Assembly: GCA_934270345.1 (NCBI GenBank)
Contig: CAKQPT010000007.1
Location: 26,112-90,111, forward strand
Origin: an uncultured Oribacterium sp.
GTDB taxonomy: Bacteria; Bacillota; Clostridia; Lachnospirales; Lachnospiraceae
Reading direction: 5' to 3'
DNA: 64,000 nt
Part shown: one piece after another, positions 6,426 through 64,000 of the stretch
How positions within the stretch are numbered: the first letter of the stretch is position 1
Layout: each line of letters opens with the position of its first letter
Program-made: the position numbers and the translations under genes
The notes under the pieces: model-generated
The model's database searches: none
What the model was told of the DNA's origin: nothing
Seen by the model: only the letters and a program-made list of their open reading frames with translations

Positions 6426-6435
6426 GGCGTCGAAG

Positions 6436-6485
6436 TGCCGGAAACATAAGCGCAGTACTGTGCTTATGTTTCCGGCATTTTTTTT
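6436..6485 (+). terminator. Strong terminator with AGTACT in the loop
   Basis: Sixteen-bp perfect stem starting TGCCGGAAACATAAGC, loop GCAGTACTGT, then eight T. The loop and 3' arm (AGTACTGTGCTT) match the core of the palindromic A elements described elsewhere in the window, so this terminator may derive from one. Confidence 0.92.
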
Positions 6486-6495
6486 GCACGACATG

Positions 6496-9115: not shown

Positions 9116-9402
9116 GAAAGAACGTTCAGAAACGTTACCAGGAAACGATTCAGCCGGCTGACTGCCGCTGAACGGACAGATGGTTGAACGTTCGGTACAG
9201 AAACACAACGATTCAGCCGGCAGTCTACCGGCTGAATGATTACAAAAATACCATGTATTGGCCGCTCCGAAAGGGGCGGCCTTCTTGATTATTCCGCCCA
9301 TCCATACTATGATGTAAGCTACGTTTGTTTTTCGGTAACCGTTCAGCGGTGCCGCCTCTCCAAGGCTCCTGCCTGAACGGTTACATTATTTGAGGTGAGT
9401 AG
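9116..9402. repeat. Structured 287-base spacer with degenerate tandem repeat, terminator and long inverted repeat
   Basis: Two degenerate units about 64 bases apart each hold GAACGTTC (9120, 9186) and the exact 15-mer AACGATTCAGCCGGC (9144-9158, 9207-9221). The second forms a stem ATTCAGCCGG/CCGGCTGAAT (9211-9237). A terminator-like stem GGCCGC/GCGGCC with TTCTT lies at 9260-9286. A perfect 12-bp inverted repeat GTAACCGTTCAG/CTGAACGGTTAC spans 9335-9384, just before the next gene. The last could be a regulatory leader hairpin or an operator. Confidence 0.6.
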
Positions 9403-10104
9403 ATGAAATGTCCGAAATGTGGTGCTGAGATATCAGATTATGCAAGTCACTGTCCGGAGTGCGGCACGCCGATCGTGAAGATCCGGCCGAAGCGCGTCTG
9501 TACAAACTGTGGCGCGGAGGTGCCGGATGATGCGACCGTATGTCCTGGTTGTGGCCGTCCCGTGAAGCGTCGTGAACACCAGCAGGCACACGCGGCCAAT
9601 GCAGGCGACGCGAACGCAGGTGGCGCTGCGGCGATGCATGGTAGCGGTGTGAACGCCGGCGGCGCTTCGTCGACACATGGCAGTGGCTTTATAGCGCGCA
9701 TCCGTCAGAGCTGGGCGCGTGATAAGTATGCCTGGCTGCAGGCGGTGATCCCGATCGTCCTCGCCTTTCTGTACCATATCAATCTGCTGCAGGATAAGAT
9801 GTCGTTTAACCTGATGAACACGGCACTGATCTTCGAGGGCCTGATTTTCTTCTTCGGTTACCTCGACGTGAAGGAGATCAGCCAGCGCCCGGAGATGTAC
9901 GGTGGCGTCGCCTTCAGCAGTCGCTACATGTACCTGAGCTATTTTCTGCCGGTGATGAGCTTTTTCGAACGGCGACAGCTGCCGGGCATGAAGCGAAATG
10001 CGCAATACCCTATCGTTCACGCCGTGCTCCTCGCGATCTTCGTCGTCCTGATGCTCTTCACATCGGATGAAGTGATGCTCCTCGAGGCTGGCGGCGCACT
10101 ATAA
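9403..10104 (+). CDS. Zinc-ribbon membrane protein of unknown function
   Basis: 233 residues. Two tandem zinc ribbons open the protein: CPKCG...CPECG (residues 3-21) and CTNCG...CPGCG (31-50). A low-complexity Ala/Gly/His linker follows, then a hydrophobic C-terminal half with about three membrane segments (WLQAVIPIVLAFLYHINLL; NTALIFEGLIFFFGYL; PIVHAVLLAIFVVLMLF). Zinc ribbon plus membrane layout is common for small Firmicutes envelope proteins of unknown role. The GAGG-containing sequence before ATG 9403 fits the start. It stands alone between structured spacers. Confidence 0.7.
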   Translation: MKCPKCGAEISDYASHCPECGTPIVKIRPKRVCTNCGAEVPDDATVCPGCGRPVKRREHQQAHAANAGDANAGGAAAMHGSGVNAGGASSTHGSGFIARIRQSWARDKYAWLQAVIPIVLAFLYHINLLQDKMSFNLMNTALIFEGLIFFFGYLDVKEISQRPEMYGGVAFSSRYMYLSYFLPVMSFFERRQLPGMKRNAQYPIVHAVLLAIFVVLMLFTSDEVMLLEAGGAL

Positions 10105-10124
10105 GAGATTCCATGATTGTGGCC

Positions 10125-10167
10125 TCGGAGGGCCTGCAGCAGCTCTGTTGCAGGCCCTCCGAATTTT
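10125..10167 (+). terminator. Terminator after the zinc-ribbon gene
   Basis: Fourteen-bp perfect stem TCGGAGGGCCTGCA with complementary 3' arm, 10-base loop, then AATTTT. Confidence 0.88.
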
Positions 10168-10243
10168 ACCGGTTTACTAAAACAGGGGAAGCTGATAAGA
10201 TAATGATGAGTATTCCATGGAGGAATAAAGAACAGGAGGAAGC

Positions 10244-11692
10244 GTGAGCGAGAACAGGAAATCGGTGATCGAGCCGGAATTTTATGGAGATTTCCAATGC
10301 ATCGGCGGACAATGCTCTTTCACCTGCTGCAAGGAGTGGAAGATTGCGGTCGACCACGAGACGAAGAAGCGCTGGCGGAAGATGGATGTGCCGGAGACGG
10401 TTCTGGAAAGTGGTCGTGTGCCGGAACATGCATGCCTTTCTACATCAGATAAAGCGCAGCTCAGCCAGTTCGTTGTGAAGAAGGATGGCGGTGAGATCAT
10501 CGAGCTTCTGCCGAATATGCGCTGCCCGTTCCTGGAGGATTCGGATCTTTGCCGGCTGGTGCTCGACTATGGAGAGGCGTGCCTCTCCGAGACCTGTCAT
10601 GTATTTCCGCGGGAAACGCATGAATTCACTGATCGGACGGAGCGTACGCTCGTCAGCTGCTGTCCGGAAATCGTGGATCGTCTGCATGAATTAACGGAAC
10701 TGCACTTCACGAATCTTCCATATCAGGACCGGGCGTTCCTGCTGGAAGGAAACGATAAGCTGTTTCAGATTCGGAACATCATGATGTACTGGCTCAAGGA
10801 TGCTTCGGTTTCAAACGAAGTGAATCTGAAGCGCTGCCTCTTCATGCTCCTCGATCTTCTCGAGAAGGAAGAGAAGATGAGGCAGAAAAACAGTGCGAAA
10901 AAGAAGACTTCGCACAGGCAGTCTGCAAAGGTGAACGGCATGTCAAAGCCGTCGGACGCTGTGGCTGAATGTGCGTCGGCAGTAACTGCGGCGCCGGACC
11001 CTGCCGAGTGCCTGAAGGAAGAGGATGTAGCGAAGCTGACAGAGATGATCCTCGCGATGCCGAAGGACGCGCAGGCGTCGATTGAGGAGCAGAACGCGCT
11101 GTTCCTGGATATTACGGAGAACTACCGGAAGGAAGGACGCTATCAGGGACTGCTGAATCCGCTCTATGCGATGGCAGAGCAGCTGAGCCATGAATTTGAG
11201 GAGGCGGATGCTGCCCGGATGGATGAAATCTGTGCGTTGCGTGCAGATGTCGTGGCTGCCTATGCGCCGCTTCTCCGGAATTACCTCGTGGCGGAAGCAT
11301 TCGCCACCCTGCTGATCCCGGGCTGTACGCTGCGGGACATGGTGCTGCAGCTCGAGTGGATGATCATGGAGTATGTGCTGATCGTGCACGCCATGGTGCT
11401 CGAAAACCTGTGTGAAAAAGACGCAGAGGACGCACCGGGCGCATCGAACGGCGAAGAAGACGCAGGGGATGCGATGCCGTCATCGGGCAGCCAGGGCGCT
11501 GTCGATGGCAGGACGCAGGCAGCAAAGGCTGATACGGTGGATGCACCGCTCGCTTATCCGAAGGCGCGCGAGCTGCTCATCCTGATCGCACGGATGACCG
11601 GCTATGACGGCGATGAGATCGAGGAGTATCTCAGTGACAGCTTCGAGAATCCGGTCTGGCCGTGGGGCTACGCGGATTATCTGCTTGCATAA
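10244..11692 (+). CDS. FliB-like cysteine-rich protein (annotated family: flagellin lysine N-methylase)
   Basis: 482 residues, GTG start after CAGGAGGA. The N terminus has the conserved cluster FQCIGGQCSFTCCKEWKI, then CPFLEDSDLC, ACLSETCHVFPR and VSCCPEI, which together look like metal or Fe-S ligands. FliB homologues are named for lysine methylation of flagellin, but no flagellar gene is visible here and many orphan homologues exist, so the substrate is open. Two hydrophilic low-complexity inserts (about residues 210-260 and 385-430, rich in Ala, Asp, Gly, Ser) interrupt the fold and look disordered. Family membership is likely; function is uncertain. Confidence 0.75.
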   Translation: MSENRKSVIEPEFYGDFQCIGGQCSFTCCKEWKIAVDHETKKRWRKMDVPETVLESGRVPEHACLSTSDKAQLSQFVVKKDGGEIIELLPNMRCPFLEDSDLCRLVLDYGEACLSETCHVFPRETHEFTDRTERTLVSCCPEIVDRLHELTELHFTNLPYQDRAFLLEGNDKLFQIRNIMMYWLKDASVSNEVNLKRCLFMLLDLLEKEEKMRQKNSAKKKTSHRQSAKVNGMSKPSDAVAECASAVTAAPDPAECLKEEDVAKLTEMILAMPKDAQASIEEQNALFLDITENYRKEGRYQGLLNPLYAMAEQLSHEFEEADAARMDEICALRADVVAAYAPLLRNYLVAEAFATLLIPGCTLRDMVLQLEWMIMEYVLIVHAMVLENLCEKDAEDAPGASNGEEDAGDAMPSSGSQGAVDGRTQAAKADTVDAPLAYPKARELLILIARMTGYDGDEIEEYLSDSFENPVWPWGYADYLLA

Positions 11693-19059: not shown

Positions 19060-19118
19060 GGCAGGGGTCCCAGCTTAGATTTTACCGAACTCGTAGTACT
19101 GTGCTTCTGGTGCCTGCC
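19060..19118. repeat. Half copy of palindromic element A (A4)
   Basis: Reverse-orientation half element with CTTAGATTTTACCG (from 19074) and AGTACTGTGCTTCT (19095-19108), matching the left half of the full element at 26537-26790. Flanking bases GGCAGG/CCTGCC (19060-19065, 19113-19118) close it as its own hairpin. Confidence 0.65.
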
Positions 19119-19136
19119 CTCCGTGACCTCTGCATA

Positions 19137-25258: not shown

Positions 25259-26527
25259 ATGGGAACAAATTACGTAGCGTACTGGAAGACGCTGCCATAT
25301 AAGCTGATGGTGGGGCTCAAGTGGATCGGTTTCGGTGTGCTGACCGGCATCCTCGTCGGCGGTGTGTCGGCGCTGTTCGCGAAGGCCATCGTGCTGGCGA
25401 CGGGCTTCCGTCTGGCGCATACCTGGATCGTGTTTCTGCTGCCGCTCGCGGGTCTGTTCATCGTCTGGTTCTATCATCGGCTCGGGGCGCGGAAGCCGCG
25501 GGGCACGAACCTCGTGCTGGAGGCGATCCGCGAGAGTGAGCGGGTGCCGGTGAAGATGGCGCCGCTCATCATCGTGTCGACGGTGCTGACGCATCTCTTC
25601 GGTGGTTCGGCCGGACGAGAGGGCGCGGCGCTGCAGGTCGGCGGTTCGCTCGGTCATGGACTCGGTCAGCTGCTGCACTTCCGGAAGGAGGAACGTCGGC
25701 GGACCATCATGTGCGGTATGAGTGCGGCCTTCTCGGCGCTGTTCGGTACGCCGCTCGCGGCGACGGTGCTCTCGATGGAAATCAGTACCGTTGGCGTGAT
25801 GTATTACTCCTCGCTTGTACCGTGCGCGGTGTCTGCATTGACCGCACACTTCGTGGCGCAGGCGATCAACCCGGGAAGCGAGGCAATGCTGCTCGCGGCG
25901 GTGCCGGCCTTCCATGTGCGCGACGCGGTCTGCACGATGCTGTTTGCGTGGGCGTGTGCGCTGGTGTCGATCCTCTTCGCGACCTCGATGCACAGCAGTA
26001 AGAAGCTGCTGCAGAAGTACTTCCCGAACGACTACATCCGCGTGGTGGTGTCCGGCGTGATCATCGTCGTGCTGACGCTGCTCGTGGGCGACCAGACCTA
26101 CAACGGCACCGGCTCGAACATCATCGCGAGCTGCATCGAGAATCCGACGTTCAAGATCGCGTTCTATGCCTTCCTGCTGAAGATTCTGTTCACCTCGGTG
26201 ACCCTCGGCGGCGGCTTCCAGGGCGGCGAGATCGTGCCGTCGCTCTTCATCGGTGCGACCTTTGGACACGTGGTCGGCAGTTTCACCGGCATGGACCCGG
26301 CGCTCTGCTCCGCGATCGGCATGGCCTGCGTCTTCTGCGGCGTGACGAACTGCCCGCTCGCTTCGCTGCTCATCGCGTTTGAGATGTTCGGCTTCGATGC
26401 GTCGTCGTACTTCATCCTCGCAATCGCGATCACCTATCTGTTCTCCGGAAACTACGGTATCTACGGTGCGCAGAAGATCCGCTTCAGCAAGTGGGATCCG
26501 GCGGAAATCGACGCGAATACACACTGA
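25259..26527 (+). CDS. ClC-family chloride channel or antiporter
   Basis: 422 residues, polytopic. ClC signatures: GGSAGREGAALQVGGSLG, keeping the gating Glu but with Ala where most members have Pro, and GGGFQGGEIVPSLFIGATFG. The gating Glu fits either channel or proton-coupled exchange. No CBS domains. GGGGGAG precedes the ATG. I looked for a fluoride riboswitch upstream, which would suggest a fluoride exporter, and did not recognise one. The palindromic region follows the stop directly. Confidence 0.88.
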   Translation: MGTNYVAYWKTLPYKLMVGLKWIGFGVLTGILVGGVSALFAKAIVLATGFRLAHTWIVFLLPLAGLFIVWFYHRLGARKPRGTNLVLEAIRESERVPVKMAPLIIVSTVLTHLFGGSAGREGAALQVGGSLGHGLGQLLHFRKEERRRTIMCGMSAAFSALFGTPLAATVLSMEISTVGVMYYSSLVPCAVSALTAHFVAQAINPGSEAMLLAAVPAFHVRDAVCTMLFAWACALVSILFATSMHSSKKLLQKYFPNDYIRVVVSGVIIVVLTLLVGDQTYNGTGSNIIASCIENPTFKIAFYAFLLKILFTSVTLGGGFQGGEIVPSLFIGATFGHVVGSFTGMDPALCSAIGMACVFCGVTNCPLASLLIAFEMFGFDASSYFILAIAITYLFSGNYGIYGAQKIRFSKWDPAEIDANTH

Positions 26528-26800
26528 CCCGGCGGGGACAGTTTGACGAAAGGCTCCGAGTGCCGGCATTAGAAGCACAGTACTCCGAGACCGGTTCAAT
26601 CTAAGCCGGGGACCCTAAGCGGCACTAGGCCCTCCGCAATCGTCGAGTTTTCCTGATGAAAACTCGACGTTGACAGAGGGGTCCAGGGAGAGATAACACC
26701 AAGTGCCGCTAAGGGGACCCGGCTTGATTTCACACGGTCTCTTCGTATGGCTTCTGATGCCGGCACTCGGAGCTCCTATTTTGCACTGAAACCCGGCGGG
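26527..26800. mobile_element. Full-length palindromic element A1 with 10-bp flanking direct repeat
   Basis: About 254 bases (26537-26790) flanked by exact copies of ACCCGGCGGG (26527-26536, 26791-26800). Outer arms GCTCCGAGTGCCGGCAT (26553-26569) and its perfect complement (26757-26773) are followed by AGAAGC/GCTTCT, then imperfect inner arms ending AGCGGCACT/AGTGCCGCT. An innermost stem CGTCGAGTTTTC/GAAAACTCGACG lies at 26641-26669. No coding capacity is evident. The termini (GACAGTTTG at left) and flanking repeat suggest a non-autonomous, MITE-like insertion. The left end is shared with the copy at 63911. Confidence 0.65.
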
Positions 26801-26933
26801 TTATGAGCGGTACAATATAGCTTTCATATGGACAGACTCCATATAATTAAAAACAGAACGCGTAGAAGACAGAAGTCGGCTTCTATGCGTTCTGTTTTTA
26901 GTTGTTCACATCTTCATATAATATAAACTTGTG
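26528..26933. other. Gene-free region after ClC
   Basis: This 406-base stretch holds the A1 element, then an AT-rich segment with a weak TACAAT (about 26811), and a bidirectional terminator at 26849-26899. I see no gene in it. Confidence 0.7.
26849..26899. terminator. Bidirectional terminator, ClC region and ROK kinase
   Basis: Twenty-base arms, AAAAACAGAACGCGTAGAAG with a near-perfect complement ending in GTTTTT, flanked by A and T runs so it can act from either side. It ends the leftward ROK gene. Confidence 0.88.
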
Positions 26934-27809
26934 TCAGTTTACGTGAAGCTCATCAATCGCGAGCTTGATGGCCCCCATGATGCCCTGGTCGTCGTGGAGG
27001 GAGGCCGGGACGATGTAGTGGTCGAGGTCGGCGAGCTCGTCGGTGCGGATATAGCCGTTCACCATGGTCCGGACCTTCTCGCGAATCAGCGGGAAGAGCT
27101 GCTCCTGGTGCATGACACCGCCTCCGAGGATGATGATCTGCGGGCTCAGGGTCATGATAAGCGTAGTGCAGGCTTCCGCGATGTAGTGCGCTTCGATATC
27201 CCATACCTTCGGATCATCCTTCAGGGTGATGGCTTTCTGTCCCCAGCGCTCTTCGATGGCCGGGCCGGCGGCCATGCCCTCGAAGCAGCTGCCATGGTAA
27301 GGACAGTGCCCCTCATAGTGATCGTCCGGGTGCTTCACCATCGGGATGTGTCCGAACTCCGGGTGGAGCATGCCGTGCACGAGATGACCACCGGAGAGGA
27401 CGCCGGCACCGACGCCGGTACCGATCGTGATGTAGACGGCATCCGTGAGACCGCGCGCCTGTCCGTAGGTGACCTCGCCGAGGAGCGAGCCGTTGACGTC
27501 GGTATCGAAGCCGACCGGCACGCCGAGCGCGCGCTTCAGTATGCCGACGATGTCGACATTGGCCCAGCCCGGTTTCGGGGTCGTCGTGATATAGCCGTAG
27601 GTCGGCGAGTTCCGGCGAAGATCGACCGGGCCGAAGCAGGCTACGCCGAGAGATGCGATCTCCTTATCGCGGAACCAGTCGATGATCGCGGACAGCGTTT
27701 CATCCGGTGTAGTCGTCGGGATGGATGTCTGCGCGAGAATCGTTCCGTTTTCATCGCCGAGCGCGCACACCATCTTCGTGCCGCCGGCCTCTAAAGCTCC
27801 GTAAAGCAT
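26934..27809 (-). CDS. ROK-family fructokinase-type sugar kinase
   Basis: 291 residues. ATP loop: YGALEAGGTKMVCALGDENG. Sugar and catalytic region: GVPVGFDTDVNGSLLGE (catalytic Asp). ROK zinc site: HPEFGHIPM...HCPYHGSCFEGMAAGPAIEERWG. The EAGGTK opening and the zinc-site layout are those of bacterial fructokinases, so fructose is the likely substrate, though mannose or glucose cannot be excluded. The start at 27809 follows AGGAGG; the frame upstream is non-coding leader with a TACAAT-like -10. The neighbouring esterase gene reads the same way, 130 bases upstream. Confidence 0.88.
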   Translation of the reverse strand: MLYGALEAGGTKMVCALGDENGTILAQTSIPTTTPDETLSAIIDWFRDKEIASLGVACFGPVDLRRNSPTYGYITTTPKPGWANVDIVGILKRALGVPVGFDTDVNGSLLGEVTYGQARGLTDAVYITIGTGVGAGVLSGGHLVHGMLHPEFGHIPMVKHPDDHYEGHCPYHGSCFEGMAAGPAIEERWGQKAITLKDDPKVWDIEAHYIAEACTTLIMTLSPQIIILGGGVMHQEQLFPLIREKVRTMVNGYIRTDELADLDHYIVPASLHDDQGIMGAIKLAIDELHVN

Positions 27810-31259: not shown

Positions 31260-31391
31260 GGAAACCTCCGGAATCGATGTCTTAGTGATAGTATATCAGA
31301 AGCGGAGCGAAAAGTATCCGTGGATCAGGTAAGCGTCGCTGATTTTTCTAAAACGTCGTGTAACAGTTCAGACCCCCCATCGACTCCCTTG

Positions 31392-31490
31392 AGAAGTTTG
31401 AGGCTGCTCCTCATTCGCCCACCCCATTGAATCCGTGAATGTTTGTACGTTTCGGTCCCCACCCCGCTCATGAGGAGCCCTCAAACTTCT
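31392..31490. repeat. Long stem-loop with CCCACCCC runs in the loop
   Basis: AGAAGTTTGAGG (31392-31403) and CTCCTCAT (31407-31414) pair perfectly with ATGAGGAG (31470-31477) and CCTCAAACTTCT (31479-31490), with a small asymmetric bulge. The 55-base loop has two CCCACCCC/CCCCACCCC runs. Confidence 0.7.
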
Positions 31491-31510
31491 GGTTATCCAA
31501 AGCCTGTAAC

Positions 31511-31650
31511 GATCGTAGGCATGTTGAAGCCAGAAATTAATGATCGTGCCTACTATTACGATTGATTTTATTGGCACGATGACTTGATATCAGGGTCATC
31601 GTGCCTACGGTTTACCCAAAATTATAGCTATTTCCGCAGGCACGATGATG
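31511..31650. repeat. Cluster of GGCACGATGA-type repeats in alternating orientation
   Basis: Related words occur at 31542-31553 (GATCGTGCCTAC), 31573-31583 (GGCACGATGAC), 31595-31608 (GTCATCGTGCCTAC) and 31636-31650 (GCAGGCACGATGATG), with weaker forms at 31511 and 31666. The middle two form a perfect 11-bp hairpin. The irregular spacing rules out a CRISPR array. Confidence 0.7.
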
Positions 31651-31772
31651 CTTTAAAGCGCTTACCATGCCTGCAGTTGAAATTTTCCAGTTTCGTCACC
31701 GTTGGCATCATTCTCTTTTCCGCTGTTTTGATAGAGCATCACCAGCTCGAACGAAACAGGTGCCGATTTTCT

Positions 31773-31841
31773 GTTTGCCTGCTCGGGGTGGGGTCAATAT
31801 GTAAGAAGATAAAAGATGTACATTGGGGTGGGCAGGCAAAC
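31773..31841. repeat. Second stem-loop with GGGGTGGG runs
   Basis: Perfect 10-bp arms GTTTGCCTGC (31773-31782) and GCAGGCAAAC (31832-31841) enclose two GGGGTGGG direct copies at about 31785 and 31824. These runs are complementary to the CCCACCCC runs of the first stem-loop 350 bases upstream. Confidence 0.65.
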
Positions 31842-31952
31842 GAAAAGAGGGCCCCGGTATGGACGGCCCCCAAAAGCAGCTGGATTAAGAAATAAGCAGT
31901 CTGAATTGTAGCTATGTTGTCAGCCTTCATAAACTTCGGTGATGACATTGAT

Positions 31953-54360: not shown

Positions 54361-54503
54361 CACAACAGACCGTGCCCGGAGGGCCGGCAACAGAAACACA
54401 GTACTCCGAGCCCGGTAAAATCTAAGCCAGAACCCGGCTTGATTTTACCTGGTCTCTCCGTACGGATTCTGTTGACGGCCCTCCGGGCCATTTTGATTTG
54501 AGG
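54361..54503. repeat. Full palindromic element A2
   Basis: Outer stem GCCCGGAGGGCCG (54374-54386) pairs perfectly with 54486-54498, continued by CAACAGAA (54388-54395) with TTCTGTTG (54477-54484). Inside are CACAGTACTCCGAG and AATCTAAGCC, and the return arm CCCGGCTTGATTTTACC with GGTCTCT. The inner core matches the element at 26537 while the outer stem is different in sequence but still paired. It sits directly after the purB stop, so it could also end that transcript. Confidence 0.8.
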
Positions 54504-63906: not shown

Positions 63907-63910
63907 ATGT

Positions 63911-64000
63911 GACAGTTTGGCGAAGGGGACCCGGAGGGGCGGCAACGGAGGCCATACGTAGAGACCGTGTGAAATCAAGCCGGGTCCCCTTAGCGGCACT
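63911..64000. mobile_element. Palindromic element A3, cut by the window edge
   Basis: It begins GACAGTTTGGCGAAGG, like the left end of the element at 26537, then carries the complement of that element's right inner arm (GAGACCGTGTGAAATCAAGC through AGCGGCACT). Its arms are therefore swapped relative to A1. The other half lies beyond the window. Confidence 0.7.

Follow-up and report, generated by a model that had tools for sequence, protein, structure and literature searches.

The window, that is, the whole stretch of 64,000 nucleotides that was analysed, contains at 26537-26790 a nested palindrome of 254 bp with the sequence ACCCGGCGGG on either flank. On the + strand of the 64 kb this sequence occurs exactly at two sites, 26527 and 26791, both flush with the palindrome. 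With its first base the left repeat overlaps the final base of the stop codon that closes the open reading frame 25259-26527, presumably a ClC-type channel gene. Downstream of the element lies a terminator-like hairpin (26845-26903), and the gene to the right of it, which we take to be of the ROK type, runs towards this hairpin. The element has no transposase gene inside it, its 254 bp being too short for one. The features of the element and of its relatives in the window are listed below with strand and basis.

26527..26536 (no strand): left direct repeat ACCCGGCGGG, of which 8 of the 10 bases are target duplication
26535..26546 (+): left terminal repeat, decayed, GGGACAGTTTGA as compared with GTAACAGTTCAG in the family; by eye against copies
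26537..26790 (+, the orientation of the asymmetric core): palindromic MITE-like element; inverted repeats, fold and copies in the sister species (G001)
26553..26576 (+): left outer arm; inverted-repeat pair
26613..26715 (+): inner core (103 bp) with 34 consensus pairs and an invariant A.A mismatch; alignment
26681..26698 (+): purine-rich, strand-asymmetric internal loop of the core; limits by eye
26750..26773 (-): right outer arm; inverted-repeat pair
26784..26790 (-): right terminal repeat, decayed, CACTGAA as compared with CTGAACTGTTAC in the family; by eye
26791..26800 (no strand): right direct repeat ACCCGGCGGG; exact sequence match
19065..19121 (-): partial relative of the element, 81% over 58 bp; similarity search of the window
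54379..54483 (+): shorter palindromic relative without the inner core, 86% over 50 bp and 83% over 52 bp; similarity search
63909..64000 (no strand): further copy, cut by the window end, with left end GTGACAGTTTGG and 91% over 67 bp at 63934-64000; similarity search

The palindrome is built from outer arms (26553-26576/26750-26773, complementarity 96%), middle arms (26587-26629/26699-26741, 77%) and inner arms (26630-26652/26658-26680, 83%). Folded as RNA, positions 26527-26800 reach -170.4 kcal/mol, as compared with a mean of -94 (sd 4.95) for shuffled sequences (z -15.4; 0 of 200 as good), and the opposite strand gives a z of -14.1, with one long nested hairpin on either strand. The first-pass annotation had described a nested inverted-repeat unit of 254 bases between exact direct repeats, and this is what the locus holds. 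It had recognised no named family, which stands as far as Rfam and literature searches go. At gathering score, Rfam has 0 matches in the whole window; for 26450-26950 there are four matches with E values of 1.2-4.6, each far under its gathering score, and on ten related loci the sole match is to 16S rRNA in a neighbouring stretch. No description of this MITE group was found in the openly licensed PubMed Central literature.

The nearest genome in the search belongs to the Lachnospiraceae, a family of gut bacteria. It is the MAG Lachnospiraceae bacterium S9M_St_59 (G001; locus L001), with an identity of 91-97% over the aligned pieces. At the orthologous site of L001 the left outer arm is kept, followed by a direct jump to the right flank, which amounts to a truncated copy. 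This copy at the same site suggests that the window insertion predates the split from the sister species, unless the MAG assembly has collapsed the hairpin. With its ends decayed and a truncated copy at the sister's orthologous site, the window copy is old. Vertical inheritance at the same locus in a related genome, which had been named earlier as speaking against mobility, is in part seen at this site. An empty site in a related strain, the other comparison suggested earlier, was not seen: the sister locus holds the truncated copy, and comparing all the fetched loci with one another revealed no clean empty site that would correspond to a core-bearing copy. The other 79 channel-gene loci fetched, many with short flanks, contain no element match at E<=1e-3. 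Elsewhere in G001, with 40 of 97 candidates scored, there are 49 matches at at least 40 places, so that the element is multicopy and dispersed; nine of the matches are second, opposite-strand matches of the palindrome, and 5 of the places sit at contig ends. The phage and plasmid collections gave no match to the element, and the plasmid collection none to one of its relatives.

Intact relatives have the ends GTAACAGTTCAG(CC)...CTGAACTGTTAC, which are terminal inverted repeats common to many copies. G001 has 35 distinct full copies (two at locus edges and matches under ~110 bp being excluded); both ends are recognisable in 10 of them, and not both in the other 25. The flanks of other copies, which the first-pass annotation had proposed to inspect, do carry their own, different 8-bp direct repeats, 7 of the 10 two-ended copies matching at 6 or more of 8 bases: four match at 8/8 (CAATGCAT, CTGTAAAT, AAGTAAAC and AAATAAAG), one at 7/8 and two at 6/8, and the remaining three at 1-2 of 8. 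Among mismatched pairs of left and right flanks, taken as a control, 7 or more bases agree in 0 of 90 and at least 6 in 3.3%.

The ends reach far beyond this species. Of 397 genomes sampled from the family to which G001 belongs, 82, about a fifth, contain a 14-mer end, GTAACAGTTCAGCC. The richest genomes have 154, 114, 92, 83, 76 and 74 sites, and 22 of the 82 have a single one; these hundreds of sites stand against one hit in all for a reversed-pattern control. The 14-mer was also met in at least 120 stretches of viral contigs, of which the 80 listed carry one site each, and was judged to be there by chance. What lies between the ends varies widely, from palindromes of 27-61 bp through elements of 100-290 bp to longer end-paired elements of 348-569 bp, some with tandem units, and of 876-1231 bp in G001. 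No recognisable genes are found in the latter, and the idea that they are decayed autonomous copies was rejected, with Pfam matches in 0 of 5 frames tested (four from these relatives).

A broader view of the duplications is given by 68 distinct end-paired elements, whose 12-mer ends lie 24-1300 bp apart and have no more than 3 mismatches in total. The loci used had mostly been fetched for a 14-mer or a core, and viral loci as well as L001-L080 were excluded. An exact 8-bp duplication flanks 24 of the elements (background 0.02%); at least 7 of 8 bases are alike in 35 (0.2%) and at least 6 in 41 (1.5%). In the other 27 at most 5 of 8 agree, four core hairpins with good ends being among these (L123, L130, L136 and L170; 1-3 of 8). 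When the left side is shifted outward by 1-3 bp, the one direction used for this control, the signal is gone (one 8/8 across three shifts). The smallest elements show the same pattern: out of ten with 27-31 bp, five have an exact duplication (L201, L230, L238, L405 and L416), one matches at 7/8, two at 6/8 and two at 3-4 of 8. A further element measures 32 bp (L399:3413-3444). The target duplication is a fixed 8 bp, different at each copy.

Since the duplication is 8 bp throughout the group, the most plausible reading of the 10-bp repeat in the window is a duplication of 8 bp to which two bases add by coincidence; the register of the duplication (ACCCGGCG, CCCGGCGG or CCGGCGGG) is not fixable because the ends of the window copy have decayed. 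It is GC-rich, and most of the other duplications seen are AT-rich. The earlier proposal that the flanking repeat is an insertion-generated duplication is thus borne out by the ends of the relatives, but its length has to be corrected from 9-10 to 8 bp. The proposal of a gene-free palindromic insertion moved in trans is also supported, and the MITE reading holds, as the copies have 8-bp duplications of their own. The window element is a decayed member of a MITE group that is widespread in Lachnospiraceae and is characterized by GTAACAGTTCAG(CC) ends and 8-bp duplications.

Some further observations concern other sites with similar ends or hairpins. L156, L163 and L175 have the same ends with tandem units of ~50 bp (TGACTCA...GGGTCAT) inside, a content resembling repeated binding sites; L203, partly masked, has ends like theirs. 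In the window, 9335-9384 is a 50-bp element with ends GTAACCGTTCAG / CTGAACGGTTAC, present also in G001 (L215:12873-12922), and 31360-31912 is a longer stretch that has GTAACAGTTCAG at its left end, is weak at its right end and in part resembles the 876-1231-bp elements of G001. In L217 (G001:C25:1-112) an element end is followed by a hairpin and a T run, after which the sequence presumably resembles the 5' start of a group II intron; this intron-like stretch has no Rfam match at gathering score. The hairpin and T run at 6435-6485 of the window look like a terminator with a stem resembling the outer arm of the element (GTGCCGGAAACATAAGCGCAGTACT), and this is perhaps an element remnant turned terminator. 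The segment 5087-6421 is inverted in G001 (L081/L215), with a copy of the hairpin element at the breakpoint adjoining window position 6491, and recombination between palindromic repeats is a possible cause of this inversion. At 10100-10244, ~143 bp including a GGCCTCGGAGGGCC...GGCCCTCCG hairpin are absent from G001.

Besides the window and G001, six further genomes, which were found as relatives of G001, share the inner core of 103 bp. Of the 64 distinct core sequences, G001 contributes 40, one of which is a truncated re-read, the six genomes 23 and the window one. At the DNA level the core is matched in 7 of 61 relatives, G001 included. The core as a family-wide feature was rejected: among 299 sampled genomes, a covariance model run with stricter filters, scoring 13 candidates in each, finds it in one, which is G001. 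The conserved hairpin core of the group in this lineage is unusual. In 50 aligned cores, 98.1% of the cells pair and 23 of the 34 pairs undergo two-sided change, values reached by 0 of 500 shuffles, with 213 two-sided, 15 one-sided and 32 non-pairing cells; these numbers count cells of related copies rather than events, and as the structure comes from the same alignment, the controls overstate. The A.A mismatch is invariant, and the purine-rich loop lies on one side. The 50-bp outer arms within one copy are on average 81% alike; when a left arm is paired with a right arm from a different copy the figure is 62-69%, and same-side arms of two copies reach 71-77%. Copies whose arms are mutually closer than to the same arm in other copies are few, numbering 5 of 39 and 2 of 23. 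Crude ORF calls place 0 of 64 cores inside a long ORF, and the cores lie about equally often in either orientation to the genes next to them (19 vs 18), which fits a selfish element; both counts are rough, as the ORF caller misassigned the left neighbour of the window copy.

As to the transposase, GTAA-starting end pairs that agree at no fewer than 16 of 20 bases occur in 7 of 13 fetched IS66 regions, inspected for GTAA ends only. Four of these pairs belong to complete IS66 elements with an exact 8-bp duplication (L429, L434, L436 and L438), and the flanks of the remaining three match at 2, 2 and 5 of 8. By eye, an IS66 remnant in G001 appears to end in GTAAGCGCTCAG, which has the GTAA start and the TCAG at positions 9-12 in common with GTAACAGTTCAG and differs from it at positions 5-8. 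Among the IS66 regions read, none has the same terminal repeats as the MITE, the other GTAA ends seen being GTAAGCG, GTAAGTACTCA and GTAAACGG, and the portion of sites inspected gave no autonomous element with exactly these ends. Based on genome lists typed by hand, IS66 occurs in 33 of the 82 genomes with the 14-mer (24.8 expected, p=0.03), which is a weak association, and in 18 of the 44 with at least 5 sites (13.3 expected, p=0.12); 5 of 11 high-copy genomes are without an IS66 match.

Since a GTAA start and an 8-bp duplication can both be found in complete IS66 elements of these bacteria, an IS66-family transposase seems the likeliest partner. It is a best guess from a transposase search limited to IS66, and not a result, because positions 5-8 differ, the association is weak and some high-copy genomes have no IS66. 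IS66 as a proven partner was not accepted, matching ends being unseen and the association weak. These same observations speak for a mover of the same MITE group from outside IS66, be it another DDE family that duplicates 8 bp or the transposase of a larger element with diverged ends; given that the GTAA start and the 8-bp duplication are common to the MITE and the four complete IS66 elements, we see this as a serious competitor at somewhat below even odds.

It could also be imagined that the element is a structured non-coding RNA, or an element of 3'-UTRs, that multiplied as a repeat and is retained for the folding of its transcript. The strong covariation and the conserved asymmetric loop would suit such a role, and the window copy, located between the stop codon of the channel gene and the terminator-like hairpin, may be transcribed. 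However, over the 6664 columns obtained when the arms of 64 copies were aligned locally, in a simple way and about an approximate apex, the mismatches include 116 G-U as compared with 131 A-C (p=0.37; 583 of other kinds). Selection on RNA would favour G-U, so that the absence of such a preference fits pairing kept in DNA rather than in RNA. With the even orientation to genes and no Rfam match at gathering score, this makes an RNA element unlikely. Self-complementarity looks to be kept in DNA, which would involve either selection for a DNA hairpin or template-switch correction of near-palindromes. The hairpin shape, the intergenic location, the many copies and the palindromic 61-bp relatives also recall REP/REPIN-like palindromes moved by a RAYT (Y1) transposase, but Y1 transposition is not known to make a target duplication, and the 8-bp duplications at the ends render this reading very improbable. 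Chance, or an ordinary terminator palindrome that happens to lie between direct repeats, could be entertained for the window copy as such, with its decayed ends and GC-rich flank; it is refuted by the copies, with relatives at at least 40 places in G001 and group-wide ends and duplications, and its probability is negligible.

Taken as a whole, the reading as a MITE group, to which we assign a probability of roughly three in four, is that of a dispersed, gene-free hairpin with 8-bp duplications. A DDE transposase, most likely of the IS66 family, would act in trans by recognising the ends and inserting the element into intergenic DNA. The window copy would have inserted at the channel-gene stop codon before the sister species diverged and have decayed since, the internal hairpin presumably being kept self-complementary at the DNA level. 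A bolder extension, which we regard as rather unlikely, is that the hairpin is the working form. The core, almost strictly Watson-Crick across the window and seven genomes, with its invariant A.A mismatch and strand-specific purine-rich loop, would then be a DNA foldback, recognised during mobility while single-stranded and folded, as for instance at the replication fork, and the same end-recognition system would also leave insertions that consist of hardly anything but two adjoining 14-bp ends, with a size of 27-32 bp and exact duplications of 8 bp. If this were true, these insertions would be among the smallest transposable units.

With the 14-mer in 82 of 397 genomes and up to 154 sites in one of them, the group gives a means of following recent insertions, of learning which transposase works in these hosts and of studying how palindromic repeats give rise to inversions. 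The covariation of the core, two-sided and almost devoid of wobble, is moreover well suited to weighing selection for DNA hairpins against a mutational process such as template-switch correction in the keeping of long palindromes.

Several known systems can be compared. REPINs and REP sequences, which are mobilized by RAYT transposases, are likewise multicopy intergenic palindromes; the element described here has 8-bp duplications and shared terminal repeats instead. The bcr1-type repeats of Bacillus cereus are also mobile repeats that fold, but host and sequence are different, and the pairing is here without wobble preference. With the IS66 insertion sequences and MITEs derived from them, the group has in common the GTAA start and the 8-bp duplication, as found in the four complete IS66 elements, as well as the GTAA....TCAG that was seen by eye in the IS66 end of G001; in contrast, the MITE is geneless, and bases 5-8 of its end are CAGT as opposed to GCGT, GTAC, ACGG and GCGC in IS66. 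Finally, bacterial MITEs in general are short, gene-free and multicopy, with terminal inverted repeats and target duplications. An example is MITEAba12 (PMC6382973), and a review exists (PMC10969869). The present group resembles bacterial MITEs in all these respects, but differs in its long-hairpin body, in a core common to several genomes and in end-paired relatives down to 27 bp.
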